In this document: piece after piece, positions 52,794-61,212 of the stretch | Layout: each line of letters begins with the position of its first letter | Numbering within the stretch: the stretch's first letter is position 1 | Assembly: GCF_000732605.1 (NCBI RefSeq) | Contig: NZ_JPME01000020.1 | Location: 62,001 to 126,000, forward strand | Direction: 5' to 3' | Length of the DNA stretch: 64,000 bases | Origin: Lacrimispora celerecrescens | GTDB lineage: Bacteria; Bacillota; Clostridia; Lachnospirales; Lachnospiraceae | Notes under the pieces: generated by a model | Seen by the model: only the letters and a program-made list of their open reading frames with translations | What the model was told of the DNA's origin: nothing | Databases searched by the model: none | Made by a program: the position numbers and the translations under genes

Positions 52794-53162
52794 CTAAATA
52801 CAATTCTTTTTAAGTTCGTCTCTCAACCGTTCCAAAGCCTTCTTTTCCAACCGGGATACGTAGGACCGGGATATTCCCATTACATCCGCAATCTCACGCT
52901 GTGTATATTCCTTCCCTCCGTGCAGCCCGTACCTCATTCCAATTATGGTTTTCTCGTTTTCTTTCAGGCAGCTGTCAAAGGCCTCATACAGTTCCTTAAT
53001 ATCCTGCTTTAGAATAATAGATTCCAGTGTTTCCTTATTTTCCATTTCGATGACATCTACTAAGCTTACAGTCTCTCCATCCTTGTCTACGCCGATGGGT
53101 TCAAACAAAGAGACCTCTTTGGAATATTTCTTGTTCGCACGAAGCAGCATTAGGATTTCATT
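52794..53162 (-). CDS. sigK: RNA polymerase sigma-K, 3' segment (interrupted gene)
   Basis: This is the C-terminal part of the mother-cell sigma factor sigma-K: NEILMLLRANKKYSKEVSL, PIGVDKDGETVSLVDVIE, and region 4 with the helix-turn-helix YTQREIADVMGISRSYVS. It encodes about 121 residues from the junction. The frame runs upstream into the recombinase gene, but that part is not sigma factor and has no proper start. The matching N-terminal part is at 58885-59152 on the same strand. Joining them at AATG gives a continuous 210-residue protein with the conserved VENEILM across the junction. It cannot be expressed as sigma-K without excision of the insert. Confidence 0.93.
   Translation of the reverse strand, partial: NEILMLLRANKKYSKEVSLFEPIGVDKDGETVSLVDVIEMENKETLESIILKQDIKELYEAFDSCLKENEKTIIGMRYGLHGGKEYTQREIADVMGISRSYVSRLEKKALERLRDELKKNCI
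53151..53162 (-). repeat. Attachment site at the sigK 3' side
   Basis: Minus-strand AATGAAATCCTA, matching the partner site AATGGTATCCTA in 10 of 12 bases. The shared AATG (53159-53162) is the probable crossover, by likeness to the AATGA core I recall for the Bacillus skin element. The recombinase stop codon TGA lies across it. Confidence 0.75.
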
Positions 53163-54843
53163 TGCTATAGTCACCTTGCGGCTCTGGTAAATTAAACTCC
53201 TTTGAGCCAAACAGATACAGGTGGACATTCTCTCCATCCCATATGACCTTATCCACAAACGTGCGCACAGCTGCCCGCCTTTGCCGGACATCCATAAGGC
53301 CGATCACATTTTGGAAGGAAGATAAGGTATGCTTAATTAACTGGAATTCCAGATCGGAAAGCTCCCTATTTCCTGCGTCCAGGGAAAGTCCCCATAACCG
53401 CTGCTCCATTTCCCCTTTTCTTTTATGAAGTCCGTCAACCTGTTGTATGATATATTCTTCCGCACCGGTTCCTCCGGCTTTTCCAAGAGAGGCCACCAGT
53501 CCGGTTATCTCCCCTTCAACGTTTTTCAGTTCCTCCTTTAAACGGGATATATCCCATTCCACTTCCTGTCTGCTTTCTTCCACTGCCTTTTTACTCCGGT
53601 ACAGCTGCCTTTGAAATTCACTGCAATCCACAGATATCTTTTTAATTTCCTCTAAGACCATTTGATCCAGTATATTTCCATTTACATTTTTCATCCCACA
53701 GCATTTCATACGGCTTTTTTCCTTCATGGTACATAAATAAGAATAGATCTGTTCCCCATCAGCATTGTACCGGCCGGACAGCTTTGGCCGCATATAGCCG
53801 CCGCAGCCGCCGCAAAAGAGGATTCCGGACAGCAATGCTACATTACTGCGGGGTTTCCGGTAACTTTTTGACTTATTTTGATCTAACAGAACCTGAACAT
53901 TGACCCACATGGAACCGGGAACCACACCCTCATGCTTTCCAACCGCCACGATCCATTCTTCCATATCTTTCATCTCGTGTGTTTTTCCGGCTTTTTGAAG
54001 GGTACGGTTATATGATATCACTCCATGGTTCCCGTCAAATGCCTCTCTCTCTGCAAAGAGATCCACTTTCTTTTCCCGTAAATATTCATAAGCATCCTGA
54101 TCTGCAATCATATAGACCGGATTGGTCAATATTCCTTTTATGGCAAAACGGCTGAATAAGCGGCCGTATTTTGTCCTATGGCCGTTTTGAAGCAAATAGG
54201 TTTCCGTCTGAGTCAGAGATCCTGTCTCTAAAAATTTCTCATAAATCACCTTAACCAGATTTGCCTCTTCCGGAATCTTCTTAAGCTTAAATGCTTTTTT
54301 CACCTTCCCGTCTATAGTCACAGAGGACACGCTCTCCGACGAATAACCCGTAGGGGTATTCCCCCCAAGCCATCTTCCGCTTTTGGAGAGTTCCAGCATG
54401 TTATCCCGGATACGTTCCGCAATTGTCTCTCTCTCCAGCTGGGAGAAAACAGAAGCAATGTACATCATGGCCCGCCCCATGGGAGAGGATGTGTCAAATT
54501 GCTCTTTTATGGAGATAAAGGAAATATGAAGTTCATTAAGCTCTTCAATCAGATTTGCAAAATCACCGATATTACGGCTTATCCGGTCAAGACGGTAGCA
54601 AACGACCGCCGTAAATTTCTTCTTTTTAGCCTCCTGCATCATGACTTTAAACTGAGGCCGCTCTAAGTTTCCTCCGGAAAACCCCTCATCCTCATATACA
54701 CAGGCGCTGTCAGCGAAACACGCTCCATAATGTGCGGAAATGTATTGTCTGCACAGCTCAATCTGATTTCCGATGCTCTCTCCTTTTCCGGTAAATTTTG
54801 ATTTCCTTGAATAAATTGCAAACCGCTCTTTCCCGGCTTCCAC
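53158..54843 (-). CDS. Large serine recombinase of the skin element (SpoIVCA-like)
   Basis: A 561-residue site-specific recombinase. Resolvase domain in the first 150 residues with the nucleophilic Ser in FAIYSRKSK near residue 11 and YRLDRISRN downstream; a recombinase DNA-binding domain at about 165-290; a zinc ribbon with CGGCGG, and further cysteines in YLCTMKEKSRMKCCG; then a coiled coil and a C-terminal domain. GTG 54843 is chosen for AAGGAGG nine bases upstream; a frame to 54924 is in the divergent promoter region. Its stop codon overlaps the attachment core, so the gene abuts the element end, as spoIVCA does. Confidence 0.93.
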   Translation of the reverse strand: MEAGKERFAIYSRKSKFTGKGESIGNQIELCRQYISAHYGACFADSACVYEDEGFSGGNLERPQFKVMMQEAKKKKFTAVVCYRLDRISRNIGDFANLIEELNELHISFISIKEQFDTSSPMGRAMMYIASVFSQLERETIAERIRDNMLELSKSGRWLGGNTPTGYSSESVSSVTIDGKVKKAFKLKKIPEEANLVKVIYEKFLETGSLTQTETYLLQNGHRTKYGRLFSRFAIKGILTNPVYMIADQDAYEYLREKKVDLFAEREAFDGNHGVISYNRTLQKAGKTHEMKDMEEWIVAVGKHEGVVPGSMWVNVQVLLDQNKSKSYRKPRSNVALLSGILFCGGCGGYMRPKLSGRYNADGEQIYSYLCTMKEKSRMKCCGMKNVNGNILDQMVLEEIKKISVDCSEFQRQLYRSKKAVEESRQEVEWDISRLKEELKNVEGEITGLVASLGKAGGTGAEEYIIQQVDGLHKRKGEMEQRLWGLSLDAGNRELSDLEFQLIKHTLSSFQNVIGLMDVRQRRAAVRTFVDKVIWDGENVHLYLFGSKEFNLPEPQGDYSK

Positions 54844-54901
54844 CCCACACTTCCTCCTTACAAAACATAACGCTTCGTTCCACCCCTTAATCCAAACATA
54901 C

Positions 54902-54930
54902 CGGACATGGGAGGCATCATACATTATAAT
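54902..54930 (+). promoter_or_regulatory. Candidate promoter of the small skin ORF
   Basis: CGGACA (54902-54907), 17-base spacer, TATAAT (54925-54930). The ATTATAAT core is symmetrical and could also serve the recombinase on the minus strand. Confidence 0.45.
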
Positions 54931-54954
54931 AACAGTCTATATCAGGTCTTTGTT

Positions 54955-55116
54955 ATGAATATGATCGTATATCAACCGAAAACAGAAGAAGACAGAAACG
55001 AATTGAGAAAAAAAGCTGCGCTCCTCCAGAGCCAGGCAGTCCTACAATATATCCAGCAGCTTTCCTGCCCGAATGACCAAAAACAGGCTCTTGTGGAAGA
55101 GCTTTACACCACCTGA
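54955..55116 (+). CDS. Small protein of unknown function, divergent from the recombinase
   Basis: A 53-residue frame from ATG 54955 (a second ATG at 54961). The protein MNMIVYQPKTEEDRNELRKK... is charged, predicted helical, with a YIQQLSCPNDQKQALVEEL end. I recall similar short proteins in Clostridia but cannot name a function. Its last 13 bases overlap the end of the large-subunit gene on the other strand. The ribosome site is weak. Position beside the recombinase makes it a candidate excision factor; this is inference. Confidence 0.5.
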   Translation: MNMIVYQPKTEEDRNELRKKAALLQSQAVLQYIQQLSCPNDQKQALVEELYTT

Positions 55117-56480
55117 ATTGTATTCACATGCTTCCCGCTTAAGAAAACATGGGTGGCGCAGGACACGCAGGGATCAAAGGACCGTATGATCCTTCCGATT
55201 TCCACAGGCGCTGTTACATCCCTGACAGGCGACCCGATCAGTGCCTGTTCTCCGGTTCCCTTCATTCCATTTGTTTGTGTTGACAGATTCCATGCCGACG
55301 GGGTTATGATCTGGTAAAAGGCTATTTCGCTGTTATCAATATACAGCCAATGACCCAGGGCTCCGCGTGTCGTATCCACCAGCCCTTTTCCCGATGATTG
55401 CACCGGAATCTCATATTCCTTCTGCATGGATACTCCCGGAACCAGATTATCTATTAAGGTCTGCATGATTTCCACAATTTTCTTAGCTTCCAGAACTCTT
55501 GCAATGGTCCGGTCCATGGCAGAAATCCCGTTTCTGTACTCGCCGGAGAGCCACTGCCTTGCCAATGGTCCTACTTCATAAGGGATATTGTTGTATCTCG
55601 GCGCTTTTATCCAGGAATATGCCTTGGCCTTATTTCTGTCCGGTTCATCGTTTTCGTTGAACCAGGCGTATTCGTCTTCCTGGGTTATAAGAGCAGGATC
55701 AAAGGGAGAGGTCTGGCCATTGGAATAAACAAGAGGATCTACATAGAGCGTTCCCAAGTTTTTATAATTGTTAAAGCTCCCATAGGACAATAAGTTGCCG
55801 TAGCCTCCGCCGAACTGATAATACTCCGGATAAAAGGTTCCGATTGTGTATACGTCAGGAAGCATTTTTTCAACGATAAATTGTCCTATATTATATAGGA
55901 TGGATTTTATGCTGATGATCTTATCTGCTGAGACCGGCGATGTAATCCCTCCAATGAATATCCCGTGATTATGCGGTACTTTTCCTCCAAGTGTAGCCAG
56001 CATCTGATGCGCCTCCCTGCTGAACCGAAGGGATTCAAAATAATCGTTAACCATCTTATCGTTGATGTCCTTTGGAAGTCTGTAATCGTTGTGATCCGTC
56101 TTAAACAGCGGATAATCCTCAGGAAGCTTCACAAAATCCGGTAGAGTAAACTGATAAAAATGCCTTAAATGATTTTGCAGGAACTCACATGCATGAAGCA
56201 GGTCCCTTAAATACCTTCCCTGTTCAGAGGGAACAATGTTAAGTGCTTCTTCCAGGGCAAGAGCAGAAGCCATGGAATGTGCAGTTGAACAGATACCGCA
56301 GATGCGCTGGGTAAAATAAACGGCATCAAAAGGGCTTCTGCCCTGAAGCATTTTTTCAAATCCACGGAACATTAAGCCTTTCGTTTTTGCCGCCACCACT
56401 GACTGATCTTCGATATCGGCATCAATTTCCATGAAGCCGCTGATACGGGTAACAGGATTAATGGTTATTTTCTCCGCCAT
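55104..56480 (-). CDS. [NiFe]-hydrogenase large subunit
   Basis: A 458-residue catalytic subunit. The L1 motif RICGICSTAH near residue 59 and the L2 motif DPCVSCATHV near residue 439 give the four cysteine ligands of the NiFe centre. After L2 there is a C-terminal extension of 14 residues (VFLSGKHVNTIQVV) that a maturation protease removes, which fits the protease gene in the same operon. NPVTRISGFMEID at the N-terminus is also typical. GAGGGGAG precedes the ATG, two bases after the small-subunit stop. The features fit group 1, respiratory-type enzymes. Confidence 0.96.
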   Translation of the reverse strand: MAEKITINPVTRISGFMEIDADIEDQSVVAAKTKGLMFRGFEKMLQGRSPFDAVYFTQRICGICSTAHSMASALALEEALNIVPSEQGRYLRDLLHACEFLQNHLRHFYQFTLPDFVKLPEDYPLFKTDHNDYRLPKDINDKMVNDYFESLRFSREAHQMLATLGGKVPHNHGIFIGGITSPVSADKIISIKSILYNIGQFIVEKMLPDVYTIGTFYPEYYQFGGGYGNLLSYGSFNNYKNLGTLYVDPLVYSNGQTSPFDPALITQEDEYAWFNENDEPDRNKAKAYSWIKAPRYNNIPYEVGPLARQWLSGEYRNGISAMDRTIARVLEAKKIVEIMQTLIDNLVPGVSMQKEYEIPVQSSGKGLVDTTRGALGHWLYIDNSEIAFYQIITPSAWNLSTQTNGMKGTGEQALIGSPVRDVTAPVEIGRIIRSFDPCVSCATHVFLSGKHVNTIQVV

Positions 56481-56482
56481 AT

Positions 56483-57391
56483 CTACTCCCCTCTCATGGT
56501 GTCATAGGTGATAAAAGGCTCCATTGCATCAGGGAATCCGAACTGGGCACATCCGATGCAAGGCGAATCATTACCTACGGGCCAGTTGACATGACCGTTC
56601 CATTGGCGAATGGGACAGTCAATCTGGGTAACCGGACCTTTACATCCCATCATATACATACAGGTTTCCTGCCCCAGCTTCGTTGCAAAAATTCCGCTGT
56701 CAAAGTAAGATCTCCTCGGACATCTGTCGTGTATGGTAATGCTGTAGAACATCAGGGGACGATCCCTGTTGTCAAGCGGGGGTTCCCCATATAATAGCAG
56801 ATAGGCCAGAGTACCCATAAACCAGTCCGGATGACATGGACAGCCTGTTAATTTTATCACTTTTCTCTGTAAAACATCCTGTATTCCCACACACTGAGTT
56901 GGATTGGGTCTTGCCGCCGACACACCTCCGTGTGAAGCGCAGGCACCGACAGCAATCACATGAGCCGCTTGTTCTCCCAGTCTTTTAACTGCCTCATATC
57001 CGGTAATCTCCCTGCCGTTGTGCCGGCCAATGACATTATAAGAACCGTTGTCCTTTAAAGATACAGCTCCTTCCACAGCAAGGATATAATCACTGCCTAT
57101 CACGTCAAACAGCTGATTCATGGCCGTGTTTCCACCAGAATTCATCAGGCTGTTGCTGTATATCATATTGGTCATTTGTGTTAACAGATACATGAAATCC
57201 GGATTTTGTCCATCAAGAAGGGAGATGGTATTACCAGAGCAGCCATTTAATTCAAGCCAGACAAGATTCCGCTTTTGCCGCACATCCTTGGCGATTTCAT
57301 CCTTCACCCTGTTTATAAGACTTTCTGTTGTTTTTAGCCGGCTTTCCTGATAAGGACATTGAAAGCTCACACAATCCAAACTTTTCACCAA
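56483..57391 (-). CDS. [NiFe]-hydrogenase small subunit, without Tat signal
   Basis: A 302-residue iron-sulfur subunit. Cluster ligands are visible in LNGCSGN, GACASHGG, GCPCHPDW, HDRCPRR, CMYMMGCKGPVTQIDCPI and DSPCIGCAQFGFPD; these account for the proximal, medial and distal clusters of group 1 enzymes. It lacks the twin-arginine signal and the C-terminal anchor of periplasmic uptake hydrogenases, so it should stay in the cytoplasm. The N-terminus CVSFQCPYQ has two extra cysteines. The start is TTG 57391 or the next codon GTG 57388; neither has a strong ribosome site, and coupling to the upstream gene (stop at 57394) is likely. Confidence 0.94.
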   Translation of the reverse strand: MVKSLDCVSFQCPYQESRLKTTESLINRVKDEIAKDVRQKRNLVWLELNGCSGNTISLLDGQNPDFMYLLTQMTNMIYSNSLMNSGGNTAMNQLFDVIGSDYILAVEGAVSLKDNGSYNVIGRHNGREITGYEAVKRLGEQAAHVIAVGACASHGGVSAARPNPTQCVGIQDVLQRKVIKLTGCPCHPDWFMGTLAYLLLYGEPPLDNRDRPLMFYSITIHDRCPRRSYFDSGIFATKLGQETCMYMMGCKGPVTQIDCPIRQWNGHVNWPVGNDSPCIGCAQFGFPDAMEPFITYDTMRGE

Positions 57392-57393
57392 CT

Positions 57394-57870
57394 TTACTCT
57401 GTTTCTGTAGCCAAATAGCCGATTATGGGTAATCGGGTCAGGACCATTGCTCCCGGATGACAGGTTGCGAAATTAACTGATAAATCATTTCCAGGATTAA
57501 GGCCAAAATGGGTGTCTCCTTTCCAGACGGAATTATTTGTCACATCATACACCACTCCATTTACTGCAACATAAGCCGGAGCTCCGTTCTTTCCATTATA
57601 TAGGGATAACTCTTCCAGAGTAAAGTATCTTGGAACTTCCTCATCGGCTTGATTTGCATGAATAGACTGATATGGATATTCCATTTCTTCCATAGCCACT
57701 TGATTGGACTGGCTAAAATATTTGATATGACTTTGCAGCATGATCACTTCACTACTCAAATGATCTAACACAACGTCATTGTTGTACTGGTTGGTATGAA
57801 GCCTTTCTATATCCTCGTTTATATGCTTGACGCAGTTCCCGATGTAATCCAAAAACATATTTAATTCCAT
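57394..57870 (-). CDS. Cytochrome b5-like heme-binding domain protein
   Basis: A 158-residue protein. The first 85 residues are helical (LDYIGNCVKHINEDIERLH...), without signal peptide or clear membrane segment. The C-terminal 75 residues form a cytochrome b5-like domain: YFTLEELSLYNGKNGAPAYV, VNGVVYDVTNNSVWKGDTHFG, and DLSVNFATCHPGAM, with two histidines as likely heme ligands. It precedes the small-subunit gene by two bases and may accept or donate electrons for the hydrogenase. ATG 57870 has GGGAGG seven bases upstream; the frame to 57951 reads into the upstream gene. Confidence 0.85.
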   Translation of the reverse strand: MELNMFLDYIGNCVKHINEDIERLHTNQYNNDVVLDHLSSEVIMLQSHIKYFSQSNQVAMEEMEYPYQSIHANQADEEVPRYFTLEELSLYNGKNGAPAYVAVNGVVYDVTNNSVWKGDTHFGLNPGNDLSVNFATCHPGAMVLTRLPIIGYLATETE

Positions 57871-57934
57871 GAATATACCTCCCATAATAAAATTCAGAAT
57901 GATTGTTAATTTTCGGACAGAGATCATGCCTTTC

Positions 57935-58192
57935 TCATTGGAATATCTCACCTTCGATTTCGTCTATCACCGCAGTAAGCGGCTCTATTTCCCGTCTAAG
58001 AACCTGCATGTTTGTCCAGTCTCCAACAAGCATATTTTCTCTTTCTAAAAAATATTCGCGGATGCTGTCTTCACTTATATGGCTGTCTGTATGTACCGTA
58101 ATTGTCAAATCAAAAATCTTTGCGATGGAATTCTCCCCGCATAGTTCAACAATCGCCTCATATAAATTTTGATTTAGGAACGTATCATGCAT
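57935..58192 (-). CDS. HypA/HybF-like small protein lacking the zinc domain
   Basis: An 85-residue protein starting MHDTFLNQNLYEAIVEL. The Met-His start, the first helix, the strand IFDLTITVH, the DSHISEDSIREYFLE segment and the later VLRREIEPLTAVID strand follow the pattern of HypA, which binds nickel through its N-terminal Met-His. The HypA zinc module with CxxC pairs is absent. ATG 58192 overlaps the protease stop (ATGCATGA) and has GGAGG nine bases upstream. It may be a dedicated nickel chaperone for this enzyme; the family call is by pattern only. Confidence 0.5.
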   Translation of the reverse strand: MHDTFLNQNLYEAIVELCGENSIAKIFDLTITVHTDSHISEDSIREYFLERENMLVGDWTNMQVLRREIEPLTAVIDEIEGEIFQ

Positions 58193-58646
58193 AAGTGATT
58201 TCCTCCGATATAATTTTTTTAATTGCGCATTCAATTCCCCTGCAGATCTGTGGCAGTTTATCCTTTAAAACAGCGCTGAGTTCCTGGCCAAAACCGATTT
58301 CACAGATTTCAATGCCAATCAAATACCCCTTAAATTGACTGCCATATAGCTTCATGAGTTCCACCATGCTTAAATCATGCTGCATGGAGAATAAGGAAGG
58401 CTGTGACAACACATCTTCAAGGCGGGTCAGATGAACGCTCCCCGGTTCTGCTCCAGAGTAACGTGCATCAAGTATGATAACAAAGTCATCCTTATTTAAT
58501 AAATAAAAGCAGTTTTGAAAATCGGTTTCTCCAATGATCACATGAATATCCTGGCGGATCAGCCGGTCTTCCAAGACTTCGGCAGCTTTAATTGCTATGG
58601 CGTCATCCTTCATAAAACGATTGCCGATAGCAACTAACTTCACCAT
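58185..58646 (-). CDS. [NiFe]-hydrogenase maturation protease (HyaD/HycI family)
   Basis: A 153-residue endopeptidase that cuts the C-terminal extension of the large subunit after nickel insertion. Metal-binding points are visible: AIGNRFMKDDA near residues 6-16, ILDARYSG near residue 59, and MQHDLS near residue 89. First gene of the operon, ATG with AAGGGGGCAAGG upstream. The general factors HypB-HypF are not in the window and must come from elsewhere. The leader 58647-58803 contains an imperfect inverted repeat but no convincing promoter. Confidence 0.9.
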   Translation of the reverse strand: MVKLVAIGNRFMKDDAIAIKAAEVLEDRLIRQDIHVIIGETDFQNCFYLLNKDDFVIILDARYSGAEPGSVHLTRLEDVLSQPSLFSMQHDLSMVELMKLYGSQFKGYLIGIEICEIGFGQELSAVLKDKLPQICRGIECAIKKIISEEITYA

Positions 58647-58717
58647 ATCCTTGCCCCCTTCTCAAATTAGTTATTTATCAATATATATGTTGGACATAAT
58701 GAAATATTCTTTGCCGG

Positions 58718-58742
58718 GGGAATATTGGCGGAGGATGTTCCC
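58718..58742. repeat. Inverted repeat in the hydrogenase operon leader
   Basis: GGGAATAT (58718-58725) faces ATGTTCCC (58735-58742) with one G-T pair. It could be an operator or RNA stem. Confidence 0.35.
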
Positions 58743-58803
58743 AGAACTTTTATGCACTACCTACATAAACTTTTTGATCTTGGAATTCAAAATATAACCG
58801 AAA

Positions 58804-58846
58804 GGAACCGGTGTATGCCCTGCTGTTACAGGCATACACCGGTTCC
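58804..58846. repeat. 16-bp perfect palindrome beside the attachment site
   Basis: Two perfect 16-base arms (58804-58819 and 58831-58846, beginning GGAACCGG) around an 11-base loop, 38 bases from the AATG core. On the minus strand TTTCGGTTATATTTT follows, so it can act as terminator for the truncated sigK message and insulate the hydrogenase operon. Confidence 0.8.
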
Positions 58847-58870
58847 ATGCTCTCGCCCGGTTTGGAGCCG

Positions 58871-59152
58871 TTACGATAGGATACCATTCTCCACACATTT
58901 GGCCGCATAAGTGGCTAGTCTGGAGCCTCTGTCCGGATGAAAAGTATTAACGGCTTTAATAAGTCCTATGGTTCCCACGGAAAGAAGATCTTCCATATCA
59001 TAATCTGTATTCTGATATTTTTTTGCCACATGTGCTACCAGACGCATATTTCTCTCGATGAGTGTGGCTCTTGCCTCCCGATCCCCTTCCTGGTATCGTT
59101 CCAGACACTCTCGTTCTTCTCGCGCAGTTAAAGGTTTGGGAAAAGTTTTCAA
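58871..59152 (-). CDS. sigK: RNA polymerase sigma-K, 5' segment (interrupted gene)
   Basis: The N-terminal part of sigma-K: FPKPLTAREERECLERYQEGD, LIERNMRLVAHVAKKYQ (region 2.1), DMEDLLSVGTIGLIKAVNTF (region 2.2-2.3) and LATYAAKCVEN (region 2.4). After VEN the frame reads GILS and stops at 58871, inside the element. The start is TTG 59152 with AAGGTGG six bases upstream; the next in-frame codons upstream contain no start before a stop. The protein therefore begins at the mature region and lacks the roughly 20-residue pro-sequence of Bacillus, as in C. difficile. Only residues up to 58885 belong to active sigma-K. Confidence 0.93.
   Translation of the reverse strand: MKTFPKPLTAREERECLERYQEGDREARATLIERNMRLVAHVAKKYQNTDYDMEDLLSVGTIGLIKAVNTFHPDRGSRLATYAAKCVENGILS
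58877..58888 (-). repeat. Attachment site at the sigK 5' side
   Basis: Minus-strand AATGGTATCCTA; the shared core AATG is at 58885-58888. Crossover in AATG restores the conserved VENEILM, whereas crossover in the second shared block ATCCTA would leave VENGILM. Confidence 0.75.
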
Positions 59153-59251: not shown

Positions 59252-60430
59252 TTAATGGTGGAACAATCGAAGTCCTGTAAAGGCCATGGCCATCCCATAT
59301 TGGTCACACGTTTCAATTACCTGGTCGTCACGGACCGATCCCCCTGGCTGGGCCACATACTTCACACCGCTTCTGTATGCCCGGTCCATGTTATCGCCAA
59401 ATGGGAAGAATGCATCAGATCCCAGGGATACCTCTGTCAGCCGGCTAAGCCAGGCTTTCTTTTCTTCTCCTGTAAATACGGCTGGTTTTACCCTGAAAAT
59501 ATGTTCCCATCTGCCGTCAGCAATGACATCCATATAATCTTCTCCAATGTAGACATCAATGGCATTGTCCAGATCCGCACGGCTGATTCCATCCACGAAC
59601 GGAAGTTCCAGAACTTTAGGTGCCTGGCGAAGAAACCAGTTATCCGCCTTGTTTCCTGCCAGCCTTGTGCAGTGGATGCGGGACTGCTGACCAGCCCCAA
59701 TCCCAATCGCTTGCCCGCCTTTCGCAAAACAGACAGAATTGGACTGGGTGTATTTTAAAGTAATAAGGGAAATAATTAAGTCAATTTTTGCAGATTGGGG
59801 GATTTCCTTGTTCTTTGTTACCACATTCTTTAAAAGCCCCTCATGAATCTTCTCTTCATTTCTTCCTTGTTCAAACATGATCCCAAAAACCTGTTTTCTC
59901 TCAAGTGGCTCTGGCTGGTAGTCCGGGTCAATTTGGATGATGTTATAATTCCCGTTTTTCTTAGACCTTAAGATTTCAAGGGCTTCCGCCTCATACCCTG
60001 GGGCGATGACGCCGTCCGATACTTCCCGCTTGATAATCCTTGCAGTATCCACATCACAGATGTCAGACAGGGCAATGAAGTCCCCGAAGGAAGACATGCG
60101 GTCAGCTCCTCTTGCCCTTGCATAGGCACTGGCCAGGGGAGAAAGCCCTTCCATATCCTCTACCCTGTAGATTTTTGCAAGTATCGGGTCAAGAGGCAGT
60201 CCCACCGCGGCACCGGCCGGAGATACATGTTTAAAAGAAGTCGCTGCAGGTAGGCCGGTCGCTTCCTTTAACTCTTTTACCAGCTGCCAGCCATGAAAGG
60301 CATCCAGGAAATTGATATATCCCGGTCTGCCGCTTAAGACCTGGATTGGAAGCTCCTTCTCACCTGGCATAAAAATCCTTGAGGGTTTCTGATTCGGGTT
60401 ACAGCCATATTTTAATTCCAGCTCATTCAT
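59252..60430 (-). CDS. AICAR formyltransferase, stand-alone
   Basis: A 392-residue phosphoribosylaminoimidazolecarboxamide formyltransferase without the cyclohydrolase domain of bifunctional PurH. Landmarks: [29 protein letters not shown] with the catalytic Lys-His, [32 protein letters not shown] (in part) and [10 protein letters not shown]. It transfers the formyl group of 10-formyl-THF, made by Fhs, to AICAR. ATG 60430 has GGAG eight bases upstream. It follows the PurO-like gene by 14 bases. Confidence 0.94.
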
Positions 60431-60444
60431 CTTTTGTACTCCTG

Positions 60445-61158
60445 TCATTGATTTTTATTTACAATCCGGGTTTCATAGGCTCCGGATTCTATGTCAATAT
60501 ATCTTACAAAGAGAGAAATCTTATTTTCCTCATGGAGGCTTTCCCATATCATGGCAGTAAATTCATCCAGGTCATCAAGGGTTGCCGCCAGCTTTGGTTC
60601 CCCTTCAAAGCTTGGCAAAGGATTTCCATCGTGCATATAGGTATGAATAAAATGGGCTTCACCTGCCTCCGGATTGTCATAAGCAAAGGTATAGCGGTTG
60701 CAGGAATCCGGATTCCCGTGATTGCTCTTAATGATGGACATGGCGTAATTGAAGCGCCCGCCTTCTATATGCATGATCCCGGAAATACGGGGCGTATAAT
60801 TAGGACTATCCGGTTCAAATTCTCTGCATCGCAAAGACTGCTCAAACGTCAGCTGTATATCCATTCCCTCGTAAATGGTATCGGTCTGATCTCCGTTTGT
60901 CACGATGGTCTTATTCCCCATAACACGCACCGGAGCGTAAATAATAAGGCTGGGGTCCGTGACACTTGAAGGATCAAAGGCCTGGGTACGGATTCCTTCC
61001 CCTTCCTCTACGAATACGCGGTTACGGCTGTTATCGCTTCTTCCCATAATAAAATAAGCGGCAACCGCCTTGGTTCCATCCGGTGTTTTTCCCATAATAA
61101 TACCTCTGCCCGGATAGGAATTACTCTTTAAATCGTCTTGTAAAGAAATCAAACTCAT
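60445..61158 (-). CDS. IMP cyclohydrolase, PurO type
   Basis: A 237-residue protein like the archaeal-type IMP cyclohydrolase Pur[36 protein letters not shown] (in part) and [18 protein letters not shown]. It closes the purine ring of FAICAR to IMP, so together with the formyltransferase downstream it replaces PurH. ATG 61158 has AAAGGAGACC upstream; 12 residues before it in frame are unlikely. First gene after the ZTP riboswitch. Confidence 0.92.
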
Positions 61159-61212
61159 TCGATCTGGTCTCCTTTCTGAATGAAAACATATCATTTAGAC
61201 AGTTGCGCACAT

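Follow-up and report, generated by a model that had tools for sequence, protein, structure and literature searches.

The closest described relatives of the element reported here are the sigK-intervening (skin) elements of Bacillus subtilis and Clostridioides difficile and the gin element of Bacillus cereus. The B. subtilis skin, with SpoIVCA and an ars operon, interrupts sigK, is excised in the mother cell and includes one operon useful to the host (PMC12607644, PMC6957869). That of C. difficile encodes the recombinase CD1231 and the directionality factor CD1234, a protein of 72 residues controlled by sigma-E and SpoIIID (PMC5025042). The gin element of gerE is excised by a serine recombinase with an accessory factor and has no phage genes (PMC5595907), which indicates that phage genes are not required in such elements. 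In the 64-kb stretch of Lacrimispora celerecrescens DNA analysed here (the window; contig C20, positions 62001-126000, of the 5.04-Mb genome G000), sigK is divided by a skin-type element of 5,726 bp that chiefly carries a [NiFe]-hydrogenase operon. Taken together, the evidence makes it probable that this is a domesticated Lacrimispora skin whose operon is driven by sigma-E in the mother cell, and that excision at a shared AATG yields a circle bearing the operon.

Like the C. difficile skin, the window element interrupts sigK and has a large serine recombinase gene beside the sigK 3' part. Both also have a small-protein directionality factor (here a candidate) and a sigK without a pro-sequence (here apparently so). 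The C. difficile skin differs in having 19 genes, of which only CD1234 is down-regulated in sigE and spoIIID mutants (PMC5025042), whereas the window element has about seven and its hydrogenase operon itself has a sigma-E-like promoter. The candidate, an open reading frame (ORF) of 53 codons, is likened to CD1234 by position and conservation. The B. subtilis skin differs in its length (42 kb) and its many phage-like genes, its ars genes forming a resistance operon within what remains of a prophage (PMC12607644). With gin the likeness is that of an element without phage genes intervening in a sporulation gene; gin lies in gerE rather than sigK, is 28.6 kb long, has three recombinases and carries mostly unknown genes together with restriction/modification genes (PMC5595907).

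In the accounts available, described skins are mostly prophage-like and their cargo is viewed as baggage. Here the main cargo of a small element free of phage genes is an enzyme operon, with a promoter of mother-cell class. A preliminary description of the window knew of no described skin with a metabolic operon as its main cargo. This stands for hydrogenases, of which we found no description inside a skin element in the literature searched, where subscription papers were mostly not covered. As a general statement it is weakened by the ars operon of B. subtilis, a partial precedent.

The divided sigK gene and the predicted excision of its insert

Both sigK halves, the recombinase gene and all hydrogenase genes are on the minus strand, with sigK read downward from position 59152. 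The features of the insertion are as follows.

58871-59152, minus strand: sigK N-terminal half (TIGR02846 positions 24-114, E 1e-41); 14 bases run into the element
58885-58888, minus strand: attL crossover core AATG, within a wider common part AATGnnATCCTA
53159-58884, minus strand: complete skin element, 5,726 bp between crossover cores with one core copy counted
53159-53162, minus strand: attR crossover core AATG, overlapped by the recombinase stop codon
52794-53162, minus strand: sigK C-terminal half (NF004471, E 2e-42; TIGR02846 positions 108-226, E 3e-41; ORF 52794-53291)
53158-54843, minus strand: large serine recombinase (Resolvase 4e-34, Recombinase, Zn_ribbon_recom; PHROG 95 integrase 6e-106)
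54955-55116, plus strand: 53-residue ORF, within a 69-residue ORF (54907-55116), between hydL and the recombinase gene

The sigK frame departs from SigK after 88 codons plus AATG (58888-58885), stops soon afterwards and resumes at the AATG of 53162-53159. The limits given in the preliminary description (53159-58888) are therefore exact to the recombination core, and the SigK models matching both halves, together with the AATG cores, bear out its proposal of a compact skin-type insert. Joining the window halves at AATG gives an in-frame product of 210 residues with the junction ...VENEILM.... Residue 2 aligns to position 24 of the SigK profile (TIGR02846), and the rebuilt sigK is apparently without a pro-sequence.

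For comparison we used a set of 25 genomes of the genus. Both halves are present as separate ORFs in 22 of these; 19 have both on one contig (the complete elements, which span 2.65 to 11.5 kb) and three are fragmented. An intact sigK occurs in none of the 25. Two further genomes (G001 and G015) have the N half only, on contigs ending inside the element, and one that is 67% complete (G009) has no sigK match. The preliminary description had allowed for an intact sigK elsewhere; a search of the window genome found no second copy, the N half matching itself (99%) and, next best, a 49% paralogue.

The AATG join restores an in-frame sigK in all 19 complete elements (198-217 residues from the start used). 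Inverted arms adjoin the cores, CGGCT-like after that of attL and AGCCG-like in attR (in the window, CGGCT inside the element and AGCCG). In the 19 complete elements attR always has Glu (GAA or GAG) as the next codon after AAT, and at attL this codon is Gly, Asp, Ala or Glu. A constant attR and a drifting attL are expected if recombination carries only the attR codon into sigK.

Further, indirect evidence comes from the assembly of Lacrimispora defluvii (G006), in which four contig ends fall on a shared AATGA. The N-half contig ends and the C-half contig begins at this sequence, and a 7,842-bp element contig (JAAOXG010000072.1) both begins and ends with it. A repeat of 5 bp would not by itself be expected to interrupt an assembly; this is the result expected if attL, attR, attB and attP were all present in the reads, and coexistence of integrated and excised forms would explain the breaks. 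Of the other fragmented genomes, G016 has one contig end at this core and G014 has none. Excision of the window element is thus plausible.

The recombinase adjoins attR, as is required of a skin element. It is contained in a listed ORF of 588 residues (53158-54924) with a probable GTG start at 54843 after AAGGAGG (by eye). Its identity to phage proteins is at most 39.5% among the eight best-ranked matches listed (the top one from Terrisporobacter phage TPELB_ph1) and below 60% in all 141 phage records. No phage structural or replication families were found by Pfam across the seven element proteins, and in a PHROGs scan of four of the seven the recombinase gave the sole match below E 0.1. Prophage-like gene content, usual in described skins, was not found by these scans. 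Judged by these families, the element is a skin without recognised phage genes apart from the recombinase, probably a domesticated one of the genus Lacrimispora.

The 53-residue ORF is the one small ORF that the preliminary description listed as the only extra. It is indeed present but is probably no filler, since it is kept in all 22 genus skins whose recombinase region was fetched (the 19 complete and three fragmented elements). Upstream of it, 18 of the 19 complete elements keep CATACA, G010 having CATATA instead, and GGAC is invariant. The ratio of nonsynonymous to synonymous substitution rates (dN/dS), from five comparisons with the window genome (G019, G017, G007, G008 and G018), is 0.10-0.29 for the 69-residue version, which partly overlaps the long recombinase ORF. 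A skin from another genus (G057) has a small ORF of 36% identity at the opposite end of the element, preceded by a GAGGGG that, by eye, resembles a ribosome-binding site. By position and conservation, this ORF is the best candidate for the recombination directionality factor.

The hydrogenase operon and its promoter

Pfam and NCBIfam family matches confirm that the main cargo is, as first proposed, a [NiFe]-hydrogenase operon. Apart from the recombinase gene and the 53-residue ORF, its five genes are the whole content of the element.

58684-58709, minus strand: sigma-E-type promoter (GAATATT-N13-CATATA), preceding the protease gene by 63 bp
58185-58646, minus strand: hydrogenase maturation protease of the HycI/HyaD type (TIGR00072, 1.5e-22; PF01750)
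57935-58189, minus strand: HypA-like protein of 84 residues, beginning MHD, without zinc domain
57394-57951, minus strand: cytochrome-b5-domain protein (PF00173, 2.3e-6)
56483-57391, minus strand: hydS, [NiFe] small subunit (TIGR00391, 3e-66)
55104-56480, minus strand: hydL, [NiFe] large subunit (NiFeSe_Hases, 5e-97), with four nickel-binding Cys and a C-terminal extension after DPCxxCxxH
55087-55102, minus strand: hairpin with a T tail resembling an intrinsic terminator, after hydL and before the recombinase gene

Upstream of the operon, GAATATT-N13-CATATATAT or near variants are preserved in clades that differ in the surrounding sequence, and the promoter boxes are conserved across skins while the spacer sequences differ. 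The same architecture is seen upstream of spoIVA and spoIIIAA (24 genomes each; for example, GAATAAT-N13-CATATAGTA and TCATAAT-N13-CATATATTG). In Bacillus, spoIVA and spoIIIA are sigma-E genes. A strict pattern, [GT][ACT]ATA[AT]T-N13-CATAT[AT], was derived from the 24 spoIVA and 24 spoIIIAA regions. It has a single match on both strands of the window, at 58709, against 0.13 expected from 100 first-order Markov sequences; across the 48 spoIVA and spoIIIAA loci, 199 kb in all with their surroundings, it has 48 matches, as expected of training sites. In 16 of the 19 complete elements it precedes the first operon gene (b5 if there is no hydrogenase) by 58-93 bp, some of the start codons behind these distances being set by hand.

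We also examined named loci with the closest relatives of hydL (the best 80 of 105 confirmed). Nine are Lacrimispora skins from genomes already in the 25-genome set (six among the complete 19, three fragmented) and 71 are other Firmicutes loci. The strict pattern occurs in 9/9 of the former and 0/71 of the homologous operons elsewhere, some of which are cut by contig ends.

A simple scan found no sigma-70-type match on the minus strand between 58650 and 58880. In C. difficile, sigma-E and sigma-K promoters are reported to have closely similar -10 boxes and different -35 boxes, ATA versus AC (PMC3789822). Since the -35 box of the operon site has ATA, sigma-E is favoured over sigma-K. The site would belong to the sigma-E class by the strict pattern, less clearly by a weight matrix. 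The sigma-E-like promoter and the lack of a sigma-70-type match just upstream point to mother-cell expression, and the hydrogenase is best read as part of the mother-cell programme, not as a catabolic enzyme that the mother cell loses. The iron hydrogenase CD3258 of C. difficile is also under sigma-E control (PMC3789822).

The enzyme itself departs in part from the known pattern. The large subunit has the two CxxC nickel motifs of a group 1-type [NiFe] hydrogenase and a C-terminal extension whose cleavage is predicted; RICGIC and DPCVSCATH are conserved in all 12 aligned sequences. The small subunit lacks the full Fe-S cysteine set, including the proximal CxxC, of this type. Its proximal motif (57230-57241, residues 51-54) is CSGN (C-x-x-N), in place of CxxC in group 1 enzymes (for example, 1frv). 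Of the 77 loci with a hydS match, 74 have the Asn and the remaining three are unaligned at this point; by replacing the second Cys it would give the cluster an unusual ligand set. No twin-arginine motif (RRxF/L) is present in the first 60 residues of hydS, and the hydrogenase is probably cytoplasmic. Comparison with relatives places the probable start of the b5 protein at 57873 (MELNMFLDYIG...). Neither Pfam nor NCBIfam gives a match to the HypA-like ORF. Its AlphaFold model (mean predicted local distance difference test score 93) has HypA or HypA-complex entries among the top 12 PDB rows, with a best E of 6.8e-3 and none below 0.001, and the HD right after the start residue is common to 20 aligned homologues.

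The 71 operons outside Lacrimispora are group-1-like. Most share the b5, small-subunit, large-subunit and protease genes and many also have the HypA-like gene; the window operon is reduced to five genes. Unlike the window, these loci have neither an adjoining sigK half or skin recombinase nor a strict sigma-E-type site. We take these operons to be probably of the mbhSL type. In Clostridium acetobutylicum, mbhSL expression is reported to persist throughout stationary phase (PMC2530871).

The idea that this hydrogenase is a sporulation enzyme across Firmicutes is not supported, given the 0/71 result with the strict site. A loose pattern matches four of the 71 (L104 being a contig-end artefact), no more than the background of 0.083 per kb. 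The spacer of the operon promoter contains GTCC (reverse GGAC) at about 58690-58700, as does that of spoIIIAA. This resembles a SpoIIID site and suggests SpoIIID control.

Distribution and history of the element

A full-length hydL of at least 74% identity is present in 17/25 genomes of the genus, including that of the window, each beside the recombinase in the fetched neighbourhood. This is the count used; a broader tally of 22/25 contains a distant paralogue. SigK-flanked hydrogenase operons are thus present in related genomes. Since the relatives were assembled independently and share the arrangement, the assembly join that the preliminary description had considered is ruled out.

Among the complete elements, hydL is present in 14 of 19. 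The five without it (G002, G010, G011, G022 and G023) still hold the b5 gene, the small ORF and the recombinase gene, and b5 is kept in 19/19. Its retention without the hydrogenase may mean that b5 has a role of its own. The smallest skins (L091 and L092, from G010 and G011; 2.65-2.67 kb) consist of the recombinase gene, the small ORF and b5 only.

Across the family more widely, 4/397 genomes drawn have hydL at E<=1e-90: that of the window and three others, in which hydL adjoins neither sigK nor a skin recombinase over the 10-16 kb examined. A sigK-type match was obtained in 82/120 family genomes and, among the matches listed, the two-half pattern is limited to G000 and G057. The 71 non-Lacrimispora hydL loci have no sigK half or skin recombinase save for two weak cases: a recombinase match of 20% (L109) and an unsplit-looking sigma-factor match of 40%/31% (L144).

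In the five comparisons, dN/dS is 0.06-0.12 for hydL, 0.06-0.12 for hydS and 0.07-0.15 for the recombinase gene; in the comparison with G003, most genes have saturated synonymous sites. By these values the hydrogenase is under purifying selection and, given its absence from some skins, is judged useful but dispensable. Skin hydL genes are united in a single clade (local support 0.92), next to Anaerotignum-type sequences from loci at which no sigK half is seen. Elements without hydrogenase are interspersed among those with it in the midpoint-rooted recombinase tree, and the b5 genes they carry cluster with those of the other skins. These trees are small and some supports are low; the pattern agrees with an operon that was present in the ancestor and was lost later in places.

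One element (G018) retains hypF, hypC, hypD and hypE within the operon, and no hypD was found elsewhere in that genome. In the window genome hypD is on contig C10, with a second [NiFe]-type cluster about 5 kb away. A single capture probably brought in the entire operon, which was then inherited with the element; hypFCDE would have been trimmed where another hyp set exists and the whole operon lost in some lineages. That the hydrogenase might be crippled by missing maturation genes was considered and is unsupported, given hypD on C10 (other hyp genes were not searched).

Other cargo varies. An alpha-galactosidase-type gene is the first cargo gene, on the sigK strand, in 10 of 19 complete skins (for example, L096:3683-4993 and L049:4364-5662); the assignment was made with PF16499 on two and by a similar ORF start in the others. 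In G022 and G023 this gene is preceded by a sigma-A-like TTGCAA-N16-TATAAT (by eye). The G013 skin adds, on the opposite strand, a regulator of the AraC type. In another genus, a skin of about 5.1 kb (L274; G057:C14:293500-304500) uses the same att site and has a response regulator and histidine kinase in place of the hydrogenase.

Proposed role and alternative explanations

We propose the following sequence of events, of which the first step is suggested by conservation. After asymmetric division, sigma-E would turn on the sigK N half and would also drive the operon from the promoter at 58709 and probably the 53-residue ORF. The recombinase and the directionality factor would then recombine attL and attR at AATG, giving an in-frame sigK and freeing a circle that holds the complete operon and its promoter; this step draws on the att sites in the sequence and on the assembly evidence from one relative. 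As the mother cell does not divide further, the circle would remain undiluted there. The mother cell would make hydrogenase before, and possibly after, excision, and the forespore would inherit the integrated element in a silent state.

The hydrogenase probably serves redox or hydrogen turnover in the mother cell, and we infer hydrogen disposal or uptake by way of the b5 protein. It is possible, and we suggest it tentatively, that the skin acts as a developmental cargo carrier, the operon having been recruited to mother-cell-only expression and being transcribed around excision and then from a circle that is not inherited. If this is true, the doomed cell alone performs hydrogen chemistry for the spore, and the spore inherits the genes silent. 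More generally, an enzyme operon with a mother-cell class of promoter as the main cargo of a small element points to clostridial sporulation having a step of redox or hydrogen chemistry, to be compared with the sigma-E-controlled iron hydrogenase of C. difficile mentioned above, and opens to testing whether gene-intervening elements supply terminal-cell functions beyond the sigK switch. The genus offers a natural experiment, with related elements that have or lack the hydrogenase and hyp genes inside or outside.

Several points weigh against this interpretation. The sigma-E status of spoIVA and spoIIIA is presumed by transfer from Bacillus, and the operon site was noticed before the pattern was derived from these genes. 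A weight matrix built from the 48 sites gives it 11.9, compared with 19-24 for the training sites; at 11.9, chance alone would give 2.4 matches per 64 kb, and the window has four other sites with higher scores. Genomes of the same clade are not independent and represent about five distinct promoter contexts. Three elements, all without hydrogenase (G002, G022 and G023), lack the strict pattern and keep only a -10-like part, and two (G019 and G020) carry a second match on the other strand within the cargo. A related genome-wide pattern with 13-14 spacing gives 17 matches compared with 9 for a reversed control, and no clear sporulation gene was seen downstream of the nine matches examined by eye (minus-strand matches were not re-read). 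This pattern is a poor one, which would miss the spoIVA and spoIIIAA sites of the window genome. The hydrogenase is dispensable, being absent from 5/19 complete skins; hydL is broken in G020 (L044) by an in-frame TGA at codon 310, with the rest of the operon intact-looking, and hydS of G004 is split over frames. Finally, the role of the 53-residue ORF is proposed from its conservation, and no homologue of it was found among 50,697 phage records.

The preliminary description saw in the operon a catabolic hydrogenase (on this model, one used in growth) whose excision would permanently take hydrogen metabolism from the mother cell while the forespore keeps it, and may thereby link the enzyme to cell fate. 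The operon is indeed part of the segment to be excised, where 17 of the 25 genomes keep it, but we think this model quite unlikely to be right: the promoter is of the sigma-E type, with no sigma-70-type match, and points to expression in the mother cell. Nor would excision strip that cell, since the circle would retain the operon and the genome has five matches to the [FeFe]-hydrogenase domain PF02906 and the second [NiFe]-type cluster on C10 (read by eye). The variable cargo (alpha-galactosidase, AraC-type regulator, and a two-component system in another genus), with a hydrogenase missing from five complete skins and damaged in two, could suggest a neutral passenger, captured by chance and now being lost. 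The sigK position would then be meaningless and the promoter-like site a relic (for example, for b5). This is unlikely in view of the low dN/dS of hydL and hydS, the promoter boxes retained while spacer and surroundings changed and the universal retention of b5.

It is similarly unlikely that the promoter serves the recombinase by sigma-E read-through, with hydrogenase expression a mere by-product. The recombinase gene is on the same strand as the operon and, in the 2.65-2.67-kb skins, the site precedes b5 and the recombinase gene; read-through is opposed by the terminator-like hairpin with its T tail after hydL and by the 53-residue ORF facing the other way between hydL and the recombinase gene. 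Least probable, and very much so, is an assembly join or a decayed, non-excising insertion in a disused sigK. The window genome by itself cannot show excision, but many independent assemblies have the same structure, all 19 complete elements rebuild sigK in frame and the L. defluvii contigs break at the core. In addition, dN/dS for both sigK halves is 0-0.03 in the five comparisons and 0.04 for the N half against G003. The reading of a domesticated skin with a sigma-E-driven operon thus remains the one we prefer.

Lacrimispora-type skins also occur in records labelled Paenibacillaceae (L110, SVDS01000039.1) and Hungatella (L113, WASS01000020.1); these labels look wrong. In the window, the two genes immediately upstream of sigK (59252-61194) match AICARFT/IMPCHase and IMP cyclohydrolase-like families, and one or both genes of this pair adjoin the sigK N half at every genus locus for which that flank was fetched.

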